NCBI GenBank assembly: GCA_024280215.1
Contig: JAJRQO010000014.1
Location: 1 to 64,000, forward strand
From: Candidatus Zixiibacteriota bacterium
Lineage (GTDB): Bacteria > Zixibacteria > MSB-5A5 > GN15 > FEB-12
Length of the DNA: 64,000 nt
Direction: 5' to 3'
Shown piece after piece: positions 1-36,866 of this stretch. The notes under the pieces are model-generated. The model saw only the letters and a program-made list of their open reading frames with translations, was not told the DNA's origin and made no database searches. Numbering within the stretch: position 1 is the stretch's first letter; every line of letters begins with the position of its first letter. The translations under genes were made by a program, and so were the position numbers.

Positions 1-139
1 ACTTAAGATATTTGAGTATATTGAATTGTTTTATAACCGTAACCGTCGTCATTCGAGCTTAGGATACAAAAGTCCAGCTCAATTTGAAGTGATGACAAAA
101 CATACTTAACTCCGTGTCCGTTTTTGCGGGGGAAGTCCA
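1..139 (+). mobile_element. Right end of an IS3-family insertion sequence (partial)
   Basis: The window opens inside an insertion sequence. It carries the last 35 codons of an IS3-type transposase (2-109), then about 30 bp that look like a terminal inverted repeat; read inward from 139 this begins TGGACTTCCCCCGC and is rich in C runs, as in many IS3-family ends. The element therefore most likely ends at about 139. The left end and target duplication lie outside the window, so the family call rests on the protein tail and the end sequence alone. Confidence 0.65.
2..109 (+). CDS. IS3-family transposase OrfB, C-terminal fragment
   Basis: Frame 2 encodes 35 residues ending at TAA 107-109, with the segment [20 protein letters not shown]. 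This is the classic C-terminus of the rve integrase domain of IS3-family OrfB transposases: an aromatic-rich helix, NRxRRHSxLGY, then the SPAxFE box. The DDE catalytic residues would lie upstream of the window. It is partial only because the window starts inside it; nothing visible suggests damage at this end. It would catalyse excision and insertion of the surrounding element. Confidence 0.8.
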
Positions 140-916
140 TTGTTGTATTATCAAAGTTTAGCTTATTATAATTTAGACATTATTGATTCAGCATTTATGA
201 GCTTAAAAAAATCAGTAGCTTTTAATGATTATTTTCCTTTTTCACATTCAAATTTATCCAATCTCTATCTTGAAAAAGGGTACTATAAAGAGGCTCTTTT
301 ACATAGCGACAGGGCAATTGAATTAGATAGTAATTTTGCTGATGCTTGGAATAATAGAGCAGGGGCATTAATACAATTAAATTTTATTGATAGTGCTGAA
401 TTTGCTTATCAGAATGCTATTAGAATAAAACCTGACTTCAAAAAAGTATGGTTTAACCTTGGTATAATTAAAATCAACAGCAATGAGTATAAAGAGGCAG
501 TGCGTTGTTATAATAAAGCTTTAGAAATTGATAATAAATTTGTAGAAGCATGGATTAAACTTGCTGAAATTTCTGCATATGTTGGGGATTCTCTTATGTC
601 GTTTTCATATTATGATTCTGCCATTATTTATGCTGATAATCCTTGGTATCCATGGTCCCAAAAGAGTATGTTGCATCAATTAATGGGTAACCATGAAAAT
701 GCGTTACTATGTATTGATAGTGCGATAGTTTATGGTGAAAGAATAAGTGAGAACGATAAATTTCTCTGGTATTTAAAAGCTTATTCCTTGACTGTCCTTT
801 TTAAATATCCTGAATGTGTAGAAGCATGTGATACTGTATTAAAGTATCATCCTAATAACCAAGATGCATATTTAATGCGTAAAGATGCATTAAAAAGGAT
901 GGGTGTAGGTTTTTAG
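140..916 (+). pseudogene. TPR-repeat protein, 5' end removed by the IS insertion
   Basis: An open frame of about 258 residues made almost wholly of tetratricopeptide repeats (for example SNLYLEKGYYKEALLHSDRA, then NRAGALIQLNFIDSAEFAYQ, then NLGIIKINSNEYKEAVRCYN). TPRs form helical scaffolds for protein contacts. The frame begins in the middle of a TPR with no signal peptide or ribosome site, directly after the probable IS terminus at 139 and in the same frame as the transposase stop at 107-109. I read this as a gene beheaded by the IS. The first TTG at 140 could start translation by chance but is unlikely to be native. It is followed by a perfect hairpin terminator. Specific function is unknown. 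Confidence 0.7.
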
Positions 917-939
917 ATTAACCTTAAGTTATTAACAAA

Positions 940-974
940 AAAGGGCAGGTCTCAAAAGCGAGACCTGCCCTTTG
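940..974. terminator. Bidirectional hairpin between the TPR gene and the cytochrome gene
   Basis: A perfect 13-14 bp stem (AGGGCAGGTCTC / GAGACCTGCCCT) with a 6-nt loop, A-rich on its left and T-rich on its right, lies between the convergent gene ends at 916 and 997. It can terminate both strands. The same GCAGGTCT/AGACCTGC core recurs at 2475-2500 and 36927-36949, so it also belongs to a dispersed repeat family. Confidence 0.75.
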
Positions 975-996
975 TATTGAATTATTAATTACTTAC

Positions 997-2226
997 TTAT
1001 TTCTTAGCTCGTAATTCAGTAGCTCTTTCTTTAATCTCTGCTAAGTCACGCACCATCTCAGACCATCCATACCATAAAGCATAATCAGGGTTGTTATGGA
1101 ATGCACCCTGAAAAGTACGCATACGATGTTTCAAATGCATCTCAAACAAGATCTGTTCAATGACAGTCGGGGCATCATGGAATGTTAGCAAGTCAGGGAA
1201 TGCATACGAATATGATTCCGGCATAGGTATTGAACCATCGGCATAGAGACTTGCGATAATACGAATTGCCTGAGCAAGAAGATGGTCGGCTTCGCGAATC
1301 ATATCATCACCTTTGGCCATTTCACCTTTGGCAAAGTTTTCACTATGACAATCAGAACAGACAGAAATCATTTTGTTGCGTTCTTTGTCAAATGATGCTT
1401 GATCTAAACGGGCAACATCGGCAGCCTTGACAACATCGAGACGTGCCGTCGGGTTACCTTCAGGGTCTAAGACACCAAGTGCCTGCAAAATTGTTACTTG
1501 GTCAGCTTTCCATTGTGGGTCTTCAGGCAGAGGTAAACGTACTGCTAAAAATCCCCATGCTGTGCGGACTTCATGGTCACCATTCGGCATGTGACAGGTT
1601 TGGCATGTTGGAGCAACTGTTGATTCGCTTAATGTACCATTTTGTTGGAGTAAATAGCGAACACCATGTTTTGATGAGGAGTACATTTCCCATTGTGGAT
1701 GATCAAAACCCATGTGACATGTTTGGCATGCTTGAGGTTGTTGCGCTTCTTTGACTGAGAATGTATGACGGGTGTGACATGCATCACATGCGGCGTGTCC
1801 AAATTTGGAACCTGCAGCTTTGAGTTCTTTGATTTGTTCTTCGGACTTAACGCCGATTTTGTGACAACCGCCACATCCTTTCATTCCATCAACTAATGTC
1901 GATGGCAAGTTGTGTGTGGTTGGCATTGCTTGAAATGATGCCCATCCGAGGGCATGTTTTCCTGCCGAGTATTGTGACACCTGAGTTTCGTGACATTCGT
2001 TACATGTTTCTGGTGTTGGCAATTGTACCAAGTCGACATCATCGGCGGATTTATGTGAATCACCATGACAGGAGGCACAGCCGATTTCACTTTCAAAATG
2101 TTTAGAGTTCTGCCAATCCTTGACAGCTCCAGGGGTAATCTTACTGTGACAGTCAACACAACTGTCTGCCGAGACATTGACTACTGCGAATGTTAGCAAT
2201 GCTACGATTGTTAAAAGTTTTTTCAT
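997..2226 (-). CDS. Octaheme c-type cytochrome, hydroxylamine oxidoreductase (HAO)-like
   Basis: A 409-residue secreted protein with a signal peptide (about residues 1-20) and exactly eight CXXCH haem motifs, starting at residues 23, 50, 75, 118, 147, 167, 208 and 290. All are plain CXXCH with no CXXCK, which argues against NrfA-type nitrite reductases. The C-terminal region HNNPDYALWYGWSEM (about 377-391) resembles the end of octaheme HAO-family proteins. Family members oxidise hydroxylamine or hydrazine, or run in reverse on nitrite and hydroxylamine; substrate and direction cannot be told here. The cross-linking tyrosine of true HAO cannot be assigned without alignment, though Y382 and Y386 are nearby candidates. 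The gene stands alone, without a recognisable membrane quinol partner, and should act in the periplasm. Confidence 0.75.
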   Translation of the reverse strand: MKKLLTIVALLTFAVVNVSADSCVDCHSKITPGAVKDWQNSKHFESEIGCASCHGDSHKSADDVDLVQLPTPETCNECHETQVSQYSAGKHALGWASFQAMPTTHNLPSTLVDGMKGCGGCHKIGVKSEEQIKELKAAGSKFGHAACDACHTRHTFSVKEAQQPQACQTCHMGFDHPQWEMYSSSKHGVRYLLQQNGTLSESTVAPTCQTCHMPNGDHEVRTAWGFLAVRLPLPEDPQWKADQVTILQALGVLDPEGNPTARLDVVKAADVARLDQASFDKERNKMISVCSDCHSENFAKGEMAKGDDMIREADHLLAQAIRIIASLYADGSIPMPESYSYAFPDLLTFHDAPTVIEQILFEMHLKHRMRTFQGAFHNNPDYALWYGWSEMVRDLAEIKERATELRAKK

Positions 2227-2441
2227 TGTATACCTTTCTCATCTATTATGTATGTGTGTGTCTATTATAGTTTGTCTCATATTATTGTACAAGTTTAATT
2301 TTGTCTGTAAAAGAGGACAAAACAAGACTGGTTCTTCTACTTTCTCTATGTCACATATATCTAATCTTAACGCAGATGTGATTGATATAAGTCAAAAGAG
2401 TTGTATTTTATAAAGTAGTTATGATTATTTTTACATTGTAG

Positions 2442-2535
2442 CGACAGGGCATTGCCCTGTCGAAAATAGTTGTAGGCAGGTCTCGCTTTTGAGACCTGCC
2501 AATTATAAGTTGTAAGGGCGTTTCGTGAAACGCCC
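2442..2535. repeat. Three consecutive short palindromes
   Basis: Three unrelated near-perfect palindromes are packed in under 100 bp: 2442-2462 (CGACAGGGC / GCCCTGTCG), 2475-2500 (GGCAGGTCTC / GAGACCTGCC) and 2516-2535 (GGGCGTTTCG / tGAAACGCCC). Each has relatives elsewhere in the window (9978-9996; 940-974 and 36927-36949; 3754-3773 and 5229-5256). They look like members of dispersed REP-like families. They have no constant spacing and are not a CRISPR. Confidence 0.75.
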
Positions 2536-2618
2536 AAGAATAGTAGAGCGGAAATCTTTAGCATTTTCGCCAAACAGTCCGCTTTGGGGTTTGTTGAAAA
2601 AAATAAATTGTCTTTCAA

Positions 2619-2690
2619 GTCCCTTCGACTCCTCTCAGGGTGACTTTAAAGACAATAACTTACAATCTGTCATACTGAGCGGAGTCGAGG
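2619..2690. repeat. CCTTCGACTC...GGAGTCGAGG inverted repeat element
   Basis: A long imperfect inverted repeat: CCCTTCGACTCC and CAGGGTGAC on the left, GTCATACTGAGC and GGAGTCGAGG on the right. Related elements are at 3165-3225, 24472-24586 and 36957-36993. The text following it (GTATGTTCAT) is the same after the 24.5-kb copy. Confidence 0.65.
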
Positions 2691-2717
2691 TATGTTCATT
2701 AAAGATGAAAGAGCAAT

Positions 2718-3155
2718 ATGGCAAAAGTAAAAATATTATCGCAAGTTTTAGAAAGCGAACAGACCTCAAATACTGTTCCGATGTTCACCGCACAGGTTGC
2801 GGCGGGTTTTCCGTCACCCGCCGATGATTACCTTGAGGGAAATCTCGACCTCAACACATATCTGATACAACATCCGGTGGCGACATATTTTGTACGGGTG
2901 ACAGGTGATTCGATGATTGGTGCGGGGATTCATTCAGGGGATATATTGATTGTCGACCGTTCACTTGAGCCGACAAGCCGTCGGGTGGTGATTGCGATTG
3001 TCAATGGCGAGTTGACTGTTAAACGGTTGATTCGGAAATCTGACCGAGTTATCTTGATGCCAGAGAATGAACGGTATAAACCGATTGAAATCAAAGACGA
3101 GACCGAGCTTGAAGTCTGGGGGGTGGTGACCTCGGTCATCCACGGGCTGATGTAA
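2718..3155 (+). CDS. umuD: UmuD-like translesion accessory protein, self-cleaving S24 peptidase
   Basis: A 145-residue protein matching UmuD throughout. The self-cleavage region is AQVAAGFPSPADDY, with A29-G30 as the probable scissile bond (Escherichia coli cleaves C24-G25). The catalytic serine is S65 in GDSM and the general-base lysine is K102; their 37-residue spacing equals the S60/K97 spacing of the E. coli protein. RecA-stimulated cleavage would give UmuD', which joins UmuC to form the error-prone DNA polymerase V. The start ATG at 2718 has only a weak AAAGAG-type ribosome site. I see no clear LexA box, but LexA boxes vary between phyla. Unusually, umuC is not adjacent: it starts about 2.1 kb downstream. 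Confidence 0.9.
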   Translation: MAKVKILSQVLESEQTSNTVPMFTAQVAAGFPSPADDYLEGNLDLNTYLIQHPVATYFVRVTGDSMIGAGIHSGDILIVDRSLEPTSRRVVIAIVNGELTVKRLIRKSDRVILMPENERYKPIEIKDETELEVWGVVTSVIHGLM

Positions 3156-3164
3156 TTATAATAA

Positions 3165-3262
3165 GTCATGCTGAGCTTGTCGAAGTATGCACCAATAGAA
3201 AACCCTTCGACAGGCTCAGGGTGACAATTATATTTGTGCATGGCAGACGTCCTCGTCTGCCA
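3165..3262. repeat. Two palindromic repeats downstream of umuD
   Basis: 3165-3225 is a GTCATGCTGAGCTTGTCGAAG ... CCTTCGACAGGCTCAGGGTGAC inverted repeat, the same family as 2619-2690. 3241-3262 is a 22-bp palindrome (TGGCAGACG / CGTCTGCCA) whose arms recur further apart at 9835-9887. Either could terminate umuD transcription, although neither has a T run. Confidence 0.7.
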
Positions 3263-3287
3263 ATGTAAAACATAGGAGAAACAAACG

Positions 3288-3713
3288 ATGCCATGTTTAG
3301 AAATATCAATGCCAAGAGTCGACGCTGAAACAAAAGAAAAACTAAGCGACGCTCTCACCAAAGTATTCGATGAATCAACAAAATTCGGTGCCGAGATTTT
3401 TGGCATCCGTTACCATGAATATGATATAGGACAATCCGCATCTGGTGGAACTGTCTGGGATGGGCGGAGTGGGCGACCGTACCTGCACATGCTCTTGTAT
3501 ATTCCTCGTATCGACCGTGCGACAAAGCAGATGTTGGTCGAAAAATTTTCTCAGGCGTTTGTTCAAGTCATCGGTAAAGAGAACTGGGTACCCGTTATAC
3601 ATATCTGCGAACATCCGTATGACAATGTTGGTGTCGAGGGAAAACTCTTGTCTGACCAATACGACGCCTGTGCAAAGAGCAAGTTCTATTATGATGTTGG
3701 TGATGAGGGGTAA
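3288..3713 (+). CDS. Tautomerase-superfamily protein with two fused 4-OT-like halves
   Basis: A 141-residue protein starting Met-Pro, so processing would expose an N-terminal proline, the catalytic base of the tautomerase (4-oxalocrotonate tautomerase/MIF) superfamily. Residues about 2-30 and 64-125 each resemble one 4-OT repeat (PCLEISMPRVDAETKEKLSD; then PYLHMLLYIPRIDRATKQ with a later GVEG motif). That makes it a long, fused member like the cis-CaaD/MSAD group rather than a 62-residue 4-OT. The second half lacks a proline at its own processed terminus. The ribosome site AGGAG lies about 12 bp before ATG 3288. The substrate is unknown, and its position between umuD and umuC gives no clue. 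Confidence 0.7.
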   Translation: MPCLEISMPRVDAETKEKLSDALTKVFDESTKFGAEIFGIRYHEYDIGQSASGGTVWDGRSGRPYLHMLLYIPRIDRATKQMLVEKFSQAFVQVIGKENWVPVIHICEHPYDNVGVEGKLLSDQYDACAKSKFYYDVGDEG

Positions 3714-29396: not shown

Positions 29397-29876
29397 TTAT
29401 TCTCCGAACTCACCTTTAATTACAACTTTTTCACTAACTCCCCAATCATTACAATAATATCCATCCTGCTTATATTGATTAAATGATGAAAATTCCCATT
29501 TTGTGGGATTATCTACAAACCGATGCTTAACTGGATTATAATGTATATAATCTATATGATTATTCATGTCAACTTGATTTCGTATTACATGATCCCAAAA
29601 ACGATTTTGCCATACTTTTCCTGAACCAAAATTATCTCGATATAAACGAGAATATGTTATTTTAAACTTGTGGATAATATCAGATATTGACTCATGACCT
29701 GTTTTAATAATAAAATGTGTGTGGTCAGGCATAATAACCCATGATTTAAGAATTCGTTCTTTCCAAGCAATTTTGAATAACTCAGAATCATTTAATAAAA
29801 TCTTTCGTCTATTAAATGTTACAATCGTAATAAAATAATAGTGATGTTGTAAATTAAATCGTTTTAATGTTTTCAT
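29397..29876 (-). CDS. REP-associated tyrosine transposase (RAYT, Y1/HUH family)
   Basis: A 159-residue Y1 transposase of the IS200/IS605-related RAYT class. The HUH motif is HTH in IMPDHTHFIIKTG (about residues 49-61); the catalytic tyrosine region DYIHYNPVKH lies near 108-117, preceded by KVWQNRFWDHVIR, the usual RAYT signature. RAYTs are single-copy domesticated transposases that cut REP palindromes in single-stranded DNA. The gene is bracketed by two inverted GTCGGG-family palindromes (29346-29392 and 29895-29948), the arrangement expected of a REPtron. The start ATG is at 29876, directly next to the upstream palindrome. Confidence 0.88.
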   Translation of the reverse strand: MKTLKRFNLQHHYYFITIVTFNRRKILLNDSELFKIAWKERILKSWVIMPDHTHFIIKTGHESISDIIHKFKITYSRLYRDNFGSGKVWQNRFWDHVIRNQVDMNNHIDYIHYNPVKHRFVDNPTKWEFSSFNQYKQDGYYCNDWGVSEKVVIKGEFGE

Positions 29877-30352: not shown

Positions 30353-30847
30353 ATGAGCAACTCTGCATATCTTTTATTAAAGTTTGATGATAAACAAAAA
30401 CTCCCTAATGCTTTTGAGCAACTTCAAGACACTTCTATTTTTGAAAATTACGATGCTGTAGACGGTCATTACCATCTGCTTATCAAGGTAGTTGAGAATA
30501 GTGAACAGACTTTGGCAATGGTGAAATCATTTGATGGTTTTTCAGAACTATCTGTTTGCCCGATTGAGCAAGATCATCAGAAAGAATTTATCTTAAATGA
30601 AGAGTTCCGTTACTGTTATGTTTTTATTGAAGCAGATGAAAAAAATCGTGATGCAGTAAAGACAAAAATAGAAAGTTTTGACGACACAGTTTTTTGTTCA
30701 TCAACAACTGGACCATACAATTTAATAGCATTACTAAAAAACGAGACATTTGATAAAATAGATCGTTTTGTAAAAACTGAAATAAAAAACCTCGACGGTG
30801 TTCTTCGTTTCAAACAGGACCATGTCATATTTCTTGATAGAATTTAG
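30353..30847 (+). CDS. Double RAM-domain (Lrp/AsnC ligand-binding-like) protein without HTH
   Basis: A 164-residue protein that reads as two tandem RAM-like halves: residues about 5-80 (AYLLLKFDDKQKLPNAF ... GHYHLLIKVVEN) and 87-155 (YCYVFIEADEKNRDAVKTKI ... TGPYNLIALLKNE). RAM domains bind amino acids or other small effectors in Lrp/AsnC regulators, but there is no DNA-binding domain here. It is the first gene of the NuoE-NuoF-fusion operon, 11 bp before nuoE, so it may sense a metabolite and act on that complex, or on a regulator elsewhere. The start ATG 30353 has AAAGGA upstream. Family assignment is by pattern only. Confidence 0.55.
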   Translation: MSNSAYLLLKFDDKQKLPNAFEQLQDTSIFENYDAVDGHYHLLIKVVENSEQTLAMVKSFDGFSELSVCPIEQDHQKEFILNEEFRYCYVFIEADEKNRDAVKTKIESFDDTVFCSSTTGPYNLIALLKNETFDKIDRFVKTEIKNLDGVLRFKQDHVIFLDRI

Positions 30848-30858
30848 GAGAGAGATTT

Positions 30859-31350
30859 ATGTCACAACAACAGTCAGACAATTTTAAACCATTCAATGTT
30901 GACTTGTGGAAATACGACGGTCAAGAGGGTGCTTTGATTCCTCTATTACAGTCGGCACAGGATACATACGGATATATTTCTGAAAAAGCGATAGACTATA
31001 TCGCACATATCACAGGCATACCAGCTGCAGATATCTATGGCGTGGTAACATTTTATGCACAGTTTAGAACCAAACCTCTTGGCAAGTATGTTGTCAAAGT
31101 TTGTAATGGTACTGCCTGTCATGTCAATGGTGCCAAACCTATCGGCGATACCATCACCGATGAATTAAGTATAAGTTACGATGAAACATCCGATGACGGT
31201 AATTTTACTCTCTTGTCAGTCGCATGTATCGGATGTTGTTCACTCGCACCAGTAATTTTAATTAACGATGAAACCTACGGCAGATTAACATCACCAAAAC
31301 TCCGTAAAATTTTACGTCAATATAAACGTAAAGTCAAAGAAGAGAAATAG
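30859..31350 (+). CDS. NuoE-like [2Fe-2S] subunit (HydC/HndA type)
   Basis: A 163-residue thioredoxin-fold [2Fe-2S] protein. After the helical N-terminus (EGALIPLLQSAQDTYGYISE) come the four cluster ligands: C-x4-C in VCNGTACHVNG and C-x3-C in ACIGCCSLAPV. This subunit passes electrons to or from the NuoF-like flavoprotein encoded next. In soluble complexes of this type (bifurcating hydrogenases, formate dehydrogenases, NADP-reducing hydrogenases) it is the smallest subunit. RBS GGAGAG precedes ATG. The gap to the next gene is 9 bp. Confidence 0.92.
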   Translation: MSQQQSDNFKPFNVDLWKYDGQEGALIPLLQSAQDTYGYISEKAIDYIAHITGIPAADIYGVVTFYAQFRTKPLGKYVVKVCNGTACHVNGAKPIGDTITDELSISYDETSDDGNFTLLSVACIGCCSLAPVILINDETYGRLTSPKLRKILRQYKRKVKEEK

Positions 31351-31359
31351 GAGCCGAAT

Positions 31360-33117
31360 ATGAAAACAGTAAAAGTAGGACTCGGCACTTGTGGTATCTC
31401 TGCTGGTGGTGAAAAAGTTTATAAAGCATTTCAAGAAGAATTAAAAGAACATCCCAATGCCTTTGTCTTAAAAGAAACAGGCTGTATTGGAATGTGTTAC
31501 TCTGAAGTCTTAATCGAAATTGAAAACGGTGCAGATAGTTCAGTCTTTTATGGAGAAGTAACTCCTGAACGTGTTGGTGAAATTGTTGAAAAAACAATTC
31601 TCTCAGACGACACAATTGAAGACTGGTTAGCCGTCAAAAAAGATAACACGAAAAACTTCTTAGAGAATCAAACACGTATCGTACTTCGAAACTGCGGTAT
31701 AATTGACCCAGGTTCTATCGACGAATATATCGAAAAGGGTGGTTATGAGGGTGCCAAAAAAGCACTTACTACAATGACCCCTGATGATGTAATTCAAGAT
31801 GTCATCAAGTCTGGTCTCAAGGGAAGAGGCGGTGGTGGTTTTCCAACTGGTGTTAAATGGAACTTTACAAAAGGTGCTAAAGGTGATCAAAAATATATTA
31901 TCTGTAACGCCGATGAAGGTGACCCAGGTGCCTTTATGGATCGTTCAGTATTAGAGGGTGACCCGAATGCCGTTCTTGAAGGAATGATTATCGCTGGTTA
32001 TGCTATTGGTGCCGACGCATCATATATTTATTGTCGGGCTGAATATCCAAAAGCTATCGCACGGCTCCGTCAAGCTATTGCCCAAGCGAAAAAGAAAAAT
32101 TTTCTCGGAGATAACATTTTCGGAACCGACTTCTCATTTAACATAAAAATCAAAGAGGGCGCTGGAGCATTTGTTTGCGGTGAAGAGACCGCACTGATTG
32201 CTTCTATTGAAGGCAAACGTGGTATGCCGAAATTTCGTCCTCCGTTTCCTGCTATTTCAGGACTCTGGGGCAAGCCAACCAATATCAACAATGTAGAAAC
32301 ATTTGCCAACGTCCCTTGGATTATTTTAAAAGGTGGCGATGCATACGCCGCATATGGTACCGATGATTCCAAAGGTACCAAAGTATTTGCAATGGCGGGA
32401 AAAGTAAAACGGACAGGACTTGTTGAAGTACCGATGGGCTGTTCTATCAATGAAATTATTTTTGATGTCTGTGATGGCATTGTTGATGATAAAAAATTCA
32501 AAGCAGTGCAGATGGGTGGTCCATCGGGTGGCTGTATCCCAGCCGACCAATGCGATGTCAAAATCGATTACAAAGAAATAAACAAGACTGGTGCTATCAT
32601 GGGTTCTGGTGGAATGGTGGTAATGGATGAGACAACATGTATGGTTGATGTTGCCAAGTTCTTCCTGTCATTTACCCAAGATGAATCATGTGGCAAATGT
32701 ACATTCTGCCGTATCGGTACCAAACGGATGCTTGAAATTTTAGAGCGTATCACTATTGGTGAAGGAACTATGGAAGACTTAGACAATTTAGAAGAGCTAA
32801 GCGGACAAATCAAAAACGCTTCTCTTTGTGGTCTTGGTCAGACAGCTCCGAATCCTGTGCTGACAACTATGAAGTATTTCAAAGATGAATATATCGCACA
32901 CATACAAGACAAAAAATGCCCAGCCCATGTATGCTCGGCTATTTTAGAATACACTATCAATGATGCCTGTACTGGTTGTACAATTTGTGCCAAAGCATGT
33001 CCGACTGATGCTATTTTAGGTGACAAAAAAGAACTACACATTATTGAACAAGACAAATGTATTAAATGCGGCAAGTGCTTTACCGTTTGCCGATTTGATG
33101 CTGTGGTGAAGGATTGA
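31360..33117 (+). CDS. NuoF-like NADH/FMN subunit with extra ferredoxin domains (HydB type)
   Basis: A 585-residue flavoprotein. Residues 1-110 are a thioredoxin-like [2Fe-2S] domain (GTCGISAGGEK ... GCIGMCYSEV). The complex-I 51-kDa core follows: GRGGGGFPTGVKW (NADH/FMN site), NADEGDPGAFMDR, SLBB, then the [4Fe-4S] ligands ESCGKCTFCRIGT and SLCGLGQTAPNP. The C-terminus carries two [4Fe-4S] ferredoxin motifs (CTGCTICAKACPTDAI and CIKCGKCFTVCRFDAV). This is the HydB/HndC architecture found in electron-bifurcating enzymes. Here no [FeFe]-hydrogenase follows; its place is taken by the GltD-molybdopterin fusion. Confidence 0.92.
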   Translation: MKTVKVGLGTCGISAGGEKVYKAFQEELKEHPNAFVLKETGCIGMCYSEVLIEIENGADSSVFYGEVTPERVGEIVEKTILSDDTIEDWLAVKKDNTKNFLENQTRIVLRNCGIIDPGSIDEYIEKGGYEGAKKALTTMTPDDVIQDVIKSGLKGRGGGGFPTGVKWNFTKGAKGDQKYIICNADEGDPGAFMDRSVLEGDPNAVLEGMIIAGYAIGADASYIYCRAEYPKAIARLRQAIAQAKKKNFLGDNIFGTDFSFNIKIKEGAGAFVCGEETALIASIEGKRGMPKFRPPFPAISGLWGKPTNINNVETFANVPWIILKGGDAYAAYGTDDSKGTKVFAMAGKVKRTGLVEVPMGCSINEIIFDVCDGIVDDKKFKAVQMGGPSGGCIPADQCDVKIDYKEINKTGAIMGSGGMVVMDETTCMVDVAKFFLSFTQDESCGKCTFCRIGTKRMLEILERITIGEGTMEDLDNLEELSGQIKNASLCGLGQTAPNPVLTTMKYFKDEYIAHIQDKKCPAHVCSAILEYTINDACTGCTICAKACPTDAILGDKKELHIIEQDKCIKCGKCFTVCRFDAVVKD

Positions 33118-33125
33118 GGTGAACA

Positions 33126-36100
33126 ATGGTTAAACTGACAATCAATGGAAAAGAAGTAACCGCATCTGAAGATAAAACTATCCTTCAAGTATGCCGTGAA
33201 CAAAATATAGATAACAATATCCCAACACTCTGCAACGATGACAAACTGAAACCGTATGGTTCCTGTTTTCTCTGCGTCGTAGAGATGGAAGGAGTCGACA
33301 AACTCTTCCCATCATGTGCTACAAAAGTTGGCGAGGGAATGAAGATTCAGACTCGTTCGGAAAAAGTAAAAGCTGCTCGCAAGACTTGCTTAGAATTACT
33401 TGTCTCCGACCATTATGCTGACTGCTTAGGACCTTGTCGTTTGGGTTGTCCCGCCGATGTTGATATTCAAGGCTACATGTCTTTAATCAATTTAGGGAAA
33501 CCGACCGAAGCAATCGCACTCATCAAAGAAAAATTACCGTTCCCATCAGTATGCGGTCGTGTCTGCACACGCAAATGCGAAGTCAACTGCCGTCGTTCGG
33601 TTATTGATGCTCCAGTTGGAATTGACTTTCTCAAGCGTTACGCCGCCGATCAGGATATGATTGGCGAGATGTGGCAACCAACACCAAAGCCTGACAATGG
33701 AATCCCTGTCGCTATCATCGGTGGTGGACCTGCTGGCTTAACAGCAGCCTACTATCTTGTTTGTGAAGGTTATCGTCCGACTGTCTATGAAGCATTGCCA
33801 AAACTTGGAGGTATGCTTCGCTATGGAATACCTGAGTATCGTCTTCCAAAAGATGTTCTCGCAAAAGAAATAGACTGGATAACATCGCTTGGTGTTGAAG
33901 TGAAAACTGAAACCGCTCTCGGAAAAGATTTTACTATTGATTCATTGTTTGACGATGGATTCAAATCTGTCTTTATCGGTCTTGGCGCTCAAGTTGGAAA
34001 ACCGATGCGTGTTGAAAATGAAGATGTCGAGGGTGTCCTTTCAGGTGTCGAATTTCTTCAACAGGTCGAACTCAAAACTGCTCCGAAAATTTCGGGTAAA
34101 GTCATCGTCGTTGGTGGTGGTAACACCGCACTCGATGCGGCTCGTTCGTCGATTCGCTTAGGTGCCGATGAAGTCGTCATTCTCTATCGTCGTACTCGCA
34201 AAGAGATGCCAGCAAATATTATGGAAATTGATGCTGCCGATGAAGAAGGTATCAAAATGGAATTTCTCGCCGCACCATCATCTATCAATGTTGACAAAGA
34301 TGGTCGTATGAAATCTATCGAATGTTTCCGTATGGAACTCGGTGAACCTGATGATTCTGGTCGTCGCCGTCCTGTCAAAATCGACGGCTCCGAACATGCT
34401 ATTGAAGCCGACTGGATTATTGCTGCTATCGGTCAGGATGTAAACTTAGATGGCGTTGACACCGATGACCAAATAGAATTAACATCATGGAAAACTATTG
34501 TCGCTAAAGAAGGAACTTTCAACACCGACCGTCCAGGCGTATTTGCTGGTGGTGATGTGGTAACTGGACCTGCCGATGCGGTCGATGCAATCGCAGCGGG
34601 TCGTCAAGCGGCTGTCGCCATTGATTCCTATATTAAAAATAATGTTATCAAACCACTCGGCTATCGTTTTGAAAGTAAACGGGATGCCTTCCATACTATC
34701 AAGAGGGAAGACCTGCTCGAAGTTGAAACATCCGAACGTCACCAGATGCTTGAACTTCCTGTCGCCAAACGTGTCTCATCATTTGATGAAGTCGAAGTCG
34801 GCTACACGCAAGATGAAGCGGTCAAAGAATCGCTCCGTTGTGCTGAGTGTGGATGCGATGTTTCTATCGCTTGTGATTTCAGAGATTACTGCTCGGAATA
34901 CGAAGTTGACCAAAACCGTTTTGTTGGTGCCTACAACAAATACAAAGTCGACACTCGTCATCCATTTATAAAAATAGATTCTAACAAATGTATCCGTTGT
35001 GGACGATGTGTCATGACCTGTTCAGAAATTCTCAATGTCTCCGCTTTAGGTTTTGTCAATCGTGGCTTTAGAACAATTGTAAAACCAGCCATGGAAAAAC
35101 CTCTGCTTGAAACAAACTGTGTCTCATGCGGTAACTGTATCGACGTTTGCCCTACAGGTGCCTTAAATGAAAAGATGCCGTTCCGTCGTTCTGGTCCATG
35201 GAAAATGGAAGGAACGCAATCGGTTTGTAACTACTGTTCGGTTGGTTGTAATATTTTAATTAACCATAAAACCCCTGATTTGTTTTTTGTTACTGGAGCT
35301 CCTCCTGATGCTGAACCTAATAATGGTGAGCTATGTGTCAAAGGGCGTTTTGGATATGAACATTATCTCGATGGTTCCCGTCTGACAAAACCGATGGTGA
35401 AAAAAGGTGACCGTATGGTTGAATGCACATGGGAAGAAGCGTTCGATGCTATCAAAGTTGGAATCGGAAACGTCTATGAACATGCAGACCGAGATCAGAC
35501 TTTGATTACCGCATCACCAAAACTAACCAATGAAGAACTTTATTTGGCAGGTATGTTTGCTCGTGCCGCTGTTGGAACAAATAATATCACATCGTTCCAA
35601 CGTCTAACTACTGAAGCAGACTATCATGCCTTAGATGATATCCTCGGAGCGACTGCATCGACTGTTTCAAATAAAGATGTTGAAAATGCTGATTTATTTA
35701 TTTTCCTCGGCGGCAACCCAACTGCTGACAATCCTGTTCTTGGATGGCAGATGAAACGTCGTATGAAAAACGGTACTAAAGCAATTGTCATTAATTCAAA
35801 TGAAATCGACTTGGTACAATATGCTACTGCGTGGGCTGACCCTCGTCGTGGTACCTCGACCGTTCTGCTCAATGTTATCATGGCGGAACTTATTAAAGCG
35901 GGTAAAATCGACGAGTCATTTATCGCAGGTAAGACTACTAACTTTGATCAAGTCAAAGATGAAATGCTCAAGCATGACCTCGATGAGGCCGCATCGGTTT
36001 CGGGTGTGACTGCGAAAACGATTTCAAAAATTGTTGAAATTTTATCCGACCCTTCATTGAAGATTGTTGCCTACTACAATATGGATAGCCGTATTGACCG

Positions 36101-36866
36101 TGCCACCAATGACCTCAAAGCACTTGGTACTCTCATGCTGATGCTTGGCAAACTCGGTGTTGATGGTTCAGGTATTGCGATAACATCGGGACAGTGTAAC
36201 CAAACGGGGATGAAAATCACAGGCTATGACCGTCATCTACTTCCTGGTGGACGATCTGTTGAAGATGCTTCTGCGATGAAAGAAATTTCTGCTATTTGGC
36301 AAAAAGATATTTCTGCAACGATTGAAAAATCTGGACATAATATCAACCGTAAGATGCGTGATAATAAAATTCGGGCAGCCTTTATCTTTGGTGAGAACCC
36401 AGCCAAGGACCCAGAATACAATTCGTTTATTGACCATCTTGATTTCTTGGTTGTCGCTGATATGTTTAAAAATGAAACCGTTCAGATGGCTGATGTTTTC
36501 CTACCGATGTCATCATACCTTGAGGGCAAGGGGCATCTTACCAATTGGGCTGGCACAAAACAATTCACCAATCCAATCGGCGAACCTTTGAGTGGGAAAC
36601 TGAATCTCGATATTATCAATGAACTGATGCACATCGTTGGTTATGACCGTGCCATAAATTCATTTGATGAGTTAGCATCTGAGATTGAGTACATGCAGAA
36701 ACATGCTGGGGTAGCGGTTCCACTTCAGGCACCATTTGCGACTGACGATGGCAAGGCACACTTCGCATTGTACACGACAGAAATTTCTACGACGTCTGCC
36801 AATGTCGAAGATATACTTGAAATCGATTCCCGCATCGCCGCCCGCACCAAAGAAATCAATGTGTAG
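33126..36866 (+). CDS. Fusion: NuoG-like ferredoxin + GltD-like FAD/NAD(P) + molybdopterin-type domain
   Basis: A 1246-residue multidomain redox protein. Residues 1-80: plant-type [2Fe-2S] (C36, C47, C50, C64). About 95-165: cysteine-rich GltD/NuoG-like region (HYADCLGPCRLGC; CGRVCTRKCEVNC). About 195-540: glutamate-synthase-small-subunit-like flavoprotein with IIGGGPAGLTAAYY and VVGGGNTALDAARSS nucleotide sites. About 625-690: two [4Fe-4S] clusters (CIRCGRCVMTC; CVSCGNCIDVCP). From about 697: molybdopterin oxidoreductase fold (VCNYCSVGCN; GELCVKGRFG). The catalytic Cys or Sec seen in formate dehydrogenases at the 'R-x-C/U-H' site is replaced: near 825 the sequence reads QRLTTEADYHAL. The C-terminal pterin-binding lobe also appears short. 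It is the third subunit of a NuoEF complex, perhaps joining NADH, a second nucleotide and ferredoxin; formate dehydrogenase activity is unlikely. Confidence 0.82.
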   Translation: MVKLTINGKEVTASEDKTILQVCREQNIDNNIPTLCNDDKLKPYGSCFLCVVEMEGVDKLFPSCATKVGEGMKIQTRSEKVKAARKTCLELLVSDHYADCLGPCRLGCPADVDIQGYMSLINLGKPTEAIALIKEKLPFPSVCGRVCTRKCEVNCRRSVIDAPVGIDFLKRYAADQDMIGEMWQPTPKPDNGIPVAIIGGGPAGLTAAYYLVCEGYRPTVYEALPKLGGMLRYGIPEYRLPKDVLAKEIDWITSLGVEVKTETALGKDFTIDSLFDDGFKSVFIGLGAQVGKPMRVENEDVEGVLSGVEFLQQVELKTAPKISGKVIVVGGGNTALDAARSSIRLGADEVVILYRRTRKEMPANIMEIDAADEEGIKMEFLAAPSSINVDKDGRMKSIECFRMELGEPDDSGRRRPVKIDGSEHAIEADWIIAAIGQDVNLDGVDTDDQIELTSWKTIVAKEGTFNTDRPGVFAGGDVVTGPADAVDAIAAGRQAAVAIDSYIKNNVIKPLGYRFESKRDAFHTIKREDLLEVETSERHQMLELPVAKRVSSFDEVEVGYTQDEAVKESLRCAECGCDVSIACDFRDYCSEYEVDQNRFVGAYNKYKVDTRHPFIKIDSNKCIRCGRCVMTCSEILNVSALGFVNRGFRTIVKPAMEKPLLETNCVSCGNCIDVCPTGALNEKMPFRRSGPWKMEGTQSVCNYCSVGCNILINHKTPDLFFVTGAPPDAEPNNGELCVKGRFGYEHYLDGSRLTKPMVKKGDRMVECTWEEAFDAIKVGIGNVYEHADRDQTLITASPKLTNEELYLAGMFARAAVGTNNITSFQRLTTEADYHALDDILGATASTVSNKDVENADLFIFLGGNPTADNPVLGWQMKRRMKNGTKAIVINSNEIDLVQYATAWADPRRGTSTVLLNVIMAELIKAGKIDESFIAGKTTNFDQVKDEMLKHDLDEAASVSGVTAKTISKIVEILSDPSLKIVAYYNMDSRIDRATNDLKALGTLMLMLGKLGVDGSGIAITSGQCNQTGMKITGYDRHLLPGGRSVEDASAMKEISAIWQKDISATIEKSGHNINRKMRDNKIRAAFIFGENPAKDPEYNSFIDHLDFLVVADMFKNETVQMADVFLPMSSYLEGKGHLTNWAGTKQFTNPIGEPLSGKLNLDIINELMHIVGYDRAINSFDELASEIEYMQKHAGVAVPLQAPFATDDGKAHFALYTTEISTTSANVEDILEIDSRIAARTKEINV

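Follow-up and report, generated by a model that had tools for sequence, protein, structure and literature searches.

An StnABC-type (Nfn-Bfu) transhydrogenase operon predicted in a Candidatus Zixiibacteriota genome, with a formate dehydrogenase module that has lost its catalytic residues and a conserved tandem-RAM neighbour gene

The stretch of DNA analysed here (the window) comprises 64,000 nucleotides of a Candidatus Zixiibacteriota bacterium (assembly GCA_024280215.1, contig JAJRQO010000014.1, positions 1 to 64,000, forward strand). Its open reading frame (ORF) at 33126–36866 on the plus strand encodes a large fused protein of 1246 amino acids. Together with the two genes directly in front of it, this ORF very probably specifies StnABC (Nfn-Bfu), an electron-bifurcating NADH/ferredoxin:NADP+ transhydrogenase; from the sequence comparisons we assign this identity a probability of about 0.93. 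An earlier interpretation made from the letters of the window (the sequence-only reading) had proposed a complex that couples NAD(H), NADP(H) and ferredoxin by bifurcation or transhydrogenation and in which a molybdopterin fold is structural. Homology to StnABC/Nfn-Bfu supports that proposal. The novelty it implied does not hold, because the StnABC family, its structure and its dead formate dehydrogenase (FDH) domain have already been published (PMC7483475, PMC10482914, PMC9304861).

The identity of the subunits was assessed by a sequence search of all PDB sequences. The top matches of the fused protein, StnC (BfuA), were 9bov_A (848 bits, E 1e-253), 8oh5_C (775 bits, E 9e-232) and 9n5u_A, an NfnA (637 bits), whereas in the same whole-protein search classic NfnB-type proteins scored about 290–300 bits and FDHs at most about 300. 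For StnB (BfuB) the top chains were 9bov_B (851 bits), 8oh5_B (850 bits; both E about 1e-255) and 9n5u_B (807 bits), with the HydB of NiFe (765 bits) and FeFe (665–697 bits) enzymes below them. The best chains for StnA (BfuC) were, in this order, 9n5u_C, 9bov_C and 8oh5_A. Since all three subunits rank Stn/Nfn-ABC chains first, the complex is assigned to Stn/Nfn-Bfu.

The domain layout fits this assignment. StnC, the last gene of the run, consists of a NuoG-like [2Fe-2S] module (residues 1–98), a GltD/NfnB-like module for flavin adenine dinucleotide (FAD) and NADPH (100–510), a Cys-rich linker with a 4Fe-4S dicluster region (572–680) and an FDH-like module (690–1246). Hence the GltD-like module sits between the [2Fe-2S] domain and the NuoG/FDH-like part, as the family requires. 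The Pfam matches over the single ORF, Fer2_4 (1–78), Fer4_20 (100–178), Pyr_redox_2 (195–492), Fer4_Nqo3 (613–680), Molybdop_Fe4S4 (697–746) and Molybdopterin (752–1167), confirm the fusion of four modules described in the sequence-only reading, and the HydB- and HydC-like partners it named are also present. StnA, NuoE/HydC-like, lies at 30859–31350 (+), matches PF01257 and has the cysteines for one [2Fe-2S] cluster (C82, C87, C123, C127). StnB, HydB/NuoF-like by its PDB matches and cysteine positions, lies at 31360–33117 (+); it is predicted to combine a site for flavin mononucleotide (FMN) and NAD(H) with an N-terminal thioredoxin-like [2Fe-2S] domain, the B1 [4Fe-4S] site and an extra C-terminal ferredoxin-like domain for two [4Fe-4S] clusters. 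The order stnA-stnB-stnC, with gaps of 8–9 bp in the window, is kept across Zixibacteria and Ignavibacteria.

Residues with a known role in the family were located by alignment to StnC of Sporomusa ovata (8oh5_C), which is gapless over residues 104–205, so that K170 of the window protein corresponds to S. ovata K170. In S. ovata this lysine ligates C7, an unusual [4Fe-4S] cluster, and is strictly conserved in StnC (PMC10482914). In the window its codon occupies 33633–33635 (+), and Lys was found in every homologue covering the site. R239 (codon 33840–33842, +) aligns with S. ovata R239, which is required for StnC activity (PMC10482914), and was invariant in all aligned homologues. The StnC cluster cysteines that were checked were likewise invariant in the homologues, except for C589, which is Gly in one of them.

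The FDH-like module appears from its sequence to have no working Mo or W active site. The active-site stretch aligns without gaps between FdhF of HDCR (GINNVDHCARLCH), MeFDH1 (GTNNVDHCTRLCH) and the window protein (GTNNITSFQRLTT); therefore T828 takes the place of the Cys/Sec of the active enzymes, and T829 that of the catalytic His. The codons of these two residues lie at 35607–35612 (+). In an alignment of 24 sequences, residue 828 varies among T, I, L, V and A, and residue 829 among T, S and N. The Arg of the motif LRGQNN is a catalytic residue in FDHs; it is replaced by S1021 (codon 36186–36188, +), a position that is S, T or G across the same 24 sequences. In none of the 24 was Cys/Sec, His or Arg restored at 828, 829 or 1021. 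The motifs DPR and ERR, through which members of this superfamily touch their pterin cofactor, have become INS-x and NWxG-x, respectively, in the StnC family alignment. Pfam gave no match in StnC to FDH domain IV (Molydop_binding), which closes the site for bis-molybdopterin guanine dinucleotide (bis-MGD), and sequence alignments to FDHs stop near residue 1190, ahead of that domain. The sequence-only reading had thus been right about the short C-terminal pterin lobe and the missing Cys/Sec, and it had overlooked the loss of the catalytic Arg. It had also set the stretch QRLTTEADYH (residues 825–834) against the R-x-C/U-H motif of FDHs, but the His of that stretch is H834 and not the catalytic His. 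The loss is specific to StnC, since three further molybdopterin proteins encoded in the genome retain Cys in the matching stretch (ARMC in two and TLC in one, as read by eye).

The predicted fold of this module also supports its membership in the family. An AlphaFold model of StnC residues 600–1246 had a mean predicted local distance difference test (pLDDT) score of 79; its first 93 residues (600–692) scored below 50, and the dicluster region was therefore not judged from the model. VIA-align placed 9bov_A first (Z 39.1 over 515 residues, root mean square deviation 2.8), with FDHs at Z 33–37 and 8oh5_C at 33.9. Foldseek ranked FDHs first, 9bov_A 7th and 8oh5_C 10th.

Certain observations speak against the assignment and have to be weighed: position 114 of StnC is Ile, the window protein and most homologues retain the lysine of LCxKG close to the FDH [4Fe-4S] cluster, and by sequence active FDHs match the FDH module better (up to 201 bits) than the corresponding modules of 9bov (140 bits) or 8oh5 (134 bits) do.

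The first of these bears on bifurcation. Ile stands at position 114 in every homologue covering the site, whereas S. ovata has C114 near cluster C7, the mutation of which halves activity; two homologues have Ile or Val there and the residue is not strictly conserved (PMC10482914), hence Ile is not disqualifying for Stn membership. This replacement would suit a non-bifurcating NAD(P)H/ferredoxin oxidoreductase built from the same subunits, and related non-bifurcating complexes exist, such as Fdh of Rhodobacter capsulatus and Nqo of Thermus thermophilus (PMC9304861). Nevertheless, StnAB keeps the cysteine pattern of the S. ovata and Caldicellulosiruptor saccharolyticus StnB and StnA, including the C-terminal ferredoxin-like domain. 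By cysteine inventory and alignment to 8oh5_B and 9bov_B, which assign sites rather than cluster content, the cysteines for the [2Fe-2S] cluster of StnA and for the N-terminal [2Fe-2S], B1 and C-terminal two [4Fe-4S] clusters of StnB are all retained. We consider the non-bifurcating alternative improbable.

The retained lysine, which is part of LCVKGRFG, makes it conceivable that a vestige of pterin binding persists. A module with a pterin still in place, perhaps a bis-MGD whose metal has no ligand from the protein, could act within an Stn-like complex as an electron sink or sensor or in other chemistry. In keeping with this, GENP is kept as well, and erosion of the module has gone less far here than in other Stn enzymes. 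Against it, DPR, ERR and domain IV have been lost, and the catalytic positions are unconserved in the family. Moreover, no molybdenum cofactor (Moco) is among the listed cofactors of S. ovata StnC, in which clusters C1 and C2 lie off the electron path (PMC10482914). A pterin-binding module is accordingly rated highly improbable.

The affinity of the module to active FDHs, with its domain I–III fold, could be taken to indicate an active NADPH- or NADH-linked formate dehydrogenase of the Fdh-Bfu type with an unusual active site, in a genome that has Moco genes. A Moco cluster on contig C19 (G000:C19:90500-103000) contains homologues of mobA, mobB, moaA, moaC, MOSC, mogA and moeA and a transporter, and it adjoins a nitrate-reductase-like molybdoenzyme and Fe-S/Nap-like accessory genes. 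The search for molybdopterin synthesis genes, which had been suggested as a check on the sequence-only reading, was thus positive; in a genome that also encodes other Mo enzymes, the presence of these genes cannot decide the cofactor question for StnC. This explanation was rejected on the catalytic residues (T828, T829 and S1021): all three, together with the two pterin-binding motifs, are replaced and variable in the family, and domain IV is absent. In addition, S. ovata StnC is annotated as FDH too and shows no formate oxidation (PMC7483475). The chance that the window protein is an active FDH appears minimal. The simplest reading of the higher scores against active FDHs is that the StnABC complex of the window carries an FDH domain that is less eroded than in the characterised Stn enzymes, yet still dead. 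The unusually strong likeness to FDHs that the dead domain has retained in this clade is a mildly new observation.

By analogy with the characterised homologues, the dead module most likely serves fold and assembly. In S. ovata the FdhF domain is catalytically inactive and needed for assembly or stability, and cryo-electron microscopy assigned bifurcation to StnAB and a non-bifurcating FAD/NADPH site to StnC (PMC10482914); the enzyme couples NADPH, NAD+ and ferredoxin (PMC7483475). Bifurcating transhydrogenase activity has also been demonstrated for Nfn-Bfu of Thermococcus sibiricus (PMC9304861). If the window complex works in the same way, the FAD of the GltD-like StnC module would accept a hydride from NADPH, single electrons would travel along the [4Fe-4S]/[2Fe-2S] chain of StnC to FMN in StnB, and the HydBC-like StnAB core would divide them between NAD+ and ferredoxin. 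In the reverse direction, NADH and reduced ferredoxin would yield NADPH.

With S. ovata StnABC (8oh5/8oh9) the window complex shares the three subunits, the gene order, the StnC fusion, K170 and R239, the dead FDH-like domain and the three-Cys pattern of the StnB N-terminal domain. It differs in the length of StnC (1172 amino acids in S. ovata), in position 114, in the closer sequence affinity of its FDH module to active FDHs, in an upstream tandem-RAM gene and in its host, which is a respiring Zixibacteria-type bacterium and not an acetogen. C. saccharolyticus Nfn-ABC (9bov/9bp5) provided the best sequence match for StnC and StnB, a near-best one for StnA and the best VIA-align match for the FDH module; its StnC homologue has 1178 amino acids, and its FDH module matches that of the window less well than active FDHs do. 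T. sibiricus Nfn-Bfu and 9n5u NfnABC share the GltD insertion in a Bfu-type A subunit and the BfuBC core, and 9n5u chains were in the top three PDB matches for all three subunits. Their A subunit is far shorter, with 963 amino acids in 9n5u_A and about 200 residues fewer than S. ovata in T. sibiricus, where the cysteines for cluster A4 are missing as well. NuoG of complex I has the [2Fe-2S] and [4Fe-4S] sites and a catalytically silent molybdopterin-fold domain as well, but it lacks a GltD module and belongs to a membrane complex. Active NAD-dependent FDHs (MeFDH1, FdsA, ForCE1) share the domain I–III fold and the [4Fe-4S] site; they retain Cys/Sec, His, Arg, DPR, ERR and domain IV and have no GltD module. 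In classic NfnAB the partner is the DHODB-like NfnA and bifurcation takes place at the NfnB FAD, whereas the partners in the window are NuoE/HydB-like.

The nearest named records are metagenome-assembled genomes (MAGs) of Candidatus Zixiibacteriota, at 92% and 90% identity, and homologues are also present in records that carry the labels GN15, Ignavibacteria and Bacteroidetes. A homologue at at least 50% identity was found in 26 of 132 sampled genomes of the phylum. In the host genome, which is 96% complete, a search for PntB found none, so Stn is a candidate for the main NADP(H)/NAD(H) exchanger of the host. The genome has a nuo operon with its own NuoG. Its only other GltD-like match is a protein of about 614 amino acids beside a cytochrome bc operon, and PF10418 (NfnA/DHODB Fe-S) matched twice, both times on contigs without a detected GltD-like gene. 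A single other GltD-like match fits the report that Stn and Nfn seldom co-occur (PMC7483475). The surroundings of the 614-residue flavoprotein (G000:C25:50000-69500) contain, in one run with it, two molybdopterin oxidoreductases, a multi-heme c-type protein and Rieske/cytochrome b genes; this is an unusual setting for a bc complex and may be linked to NAD(P)H. Elsewhere in the genome (G000:C24:10000-17000, 15-3655), a second NuoE/HydB/HoxU-like set stands right behind a 2-oxoacid:ferredoxin oxidoreductase gamma-like gene, making it a candidate Por/Kor-Bfu bifurcating complex.

The first gene of the presumed operon (30353–30847, +) encodes a protein of 164 amino acids and precedes stnA (30859–31350), stnB (31360–33117) and stnC (33126–36866), with gaps of 8–11 bp throughout. 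The Lrp/AsnC ligand-binding (RAM) domain PF01037 matched its C-terminal half (E 1.2e-7), and the protein is of the Lrp/AsnC ligand-binding type without a DNA-binding domain. Its AlphaFold model (pLDDT 89) consists of two beta-alpha-beta-beta-alpha-beta units; its PDB matches included stand-alone RAM proteins and, over both halves, the siroheme decarboxylase NirDL. This RAM neighbour closely tracks Stn across the phylum, which is mildly new. In all 11 loci with enough flanking sequence, those of Ignavibacteria included, its gene immediately precedes stnA. Among the 26 Stn genomes of the phylum 23 have the gene, and in the remaining three its expected position lies beyond the end of the Stn contig; in one genome that has the gene, G031, no Stn was detected. 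The co-occurrence gave a Fisher p of about 4e-21, with relatedness ignored and two genome samples treated as one set. By coordinates, 16 of the 23 genomes carry the gene just ahead of the Stn genes on one contig, while in the rest it is on separate contigs or, in G025, scattered within one contig. That genome is a single contig (G025:C1) in which the stnC homologue is split into two overlapping fragments separated by about 1.8 Mb, with the RAM gene at yet another place; this pattern points to misassembly of the MAG. The RAM protein evolves faster than the enzyme (28–39% against 65–80% identity at the same non-congeneric loci). Among the papers listed in a literature search, none linked a RAM protein with a bifurcating transhydrogenase. 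A role as a regulator or fourth subunit of Stn is plausible. Tentatively, and with some doubt, the Stn of Zixibacteria and Ignavibacteria might have a dedicated upstream tandem-RAM component that binds a small metabolite, e.g. an amino acid, and regulates activity, assembly or expression. Further upstream, at 29397–29876 on the minus strand, an ORF of 159 amino acids resembles a REP-associated tyrosine transposase and overlaps the upstream end of a queG-like ORF.

Annotation of StnC as a formate dehydrogenase or as a molybdopterin oxidoreductase can be misleading. The dead FDH domain of this clade, being less eroded, helps to reconstruct the origin of StnC from an FDH-type subunit, and the conserved tandem-RAM neighbour offers a lead on the control of bifurcation. 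For uncultured Zixibacteria-type bacteria and for Ignavibacteria, these results make Stn a candidate for the main exchanger between NADPH, NADH and ferredoxin.

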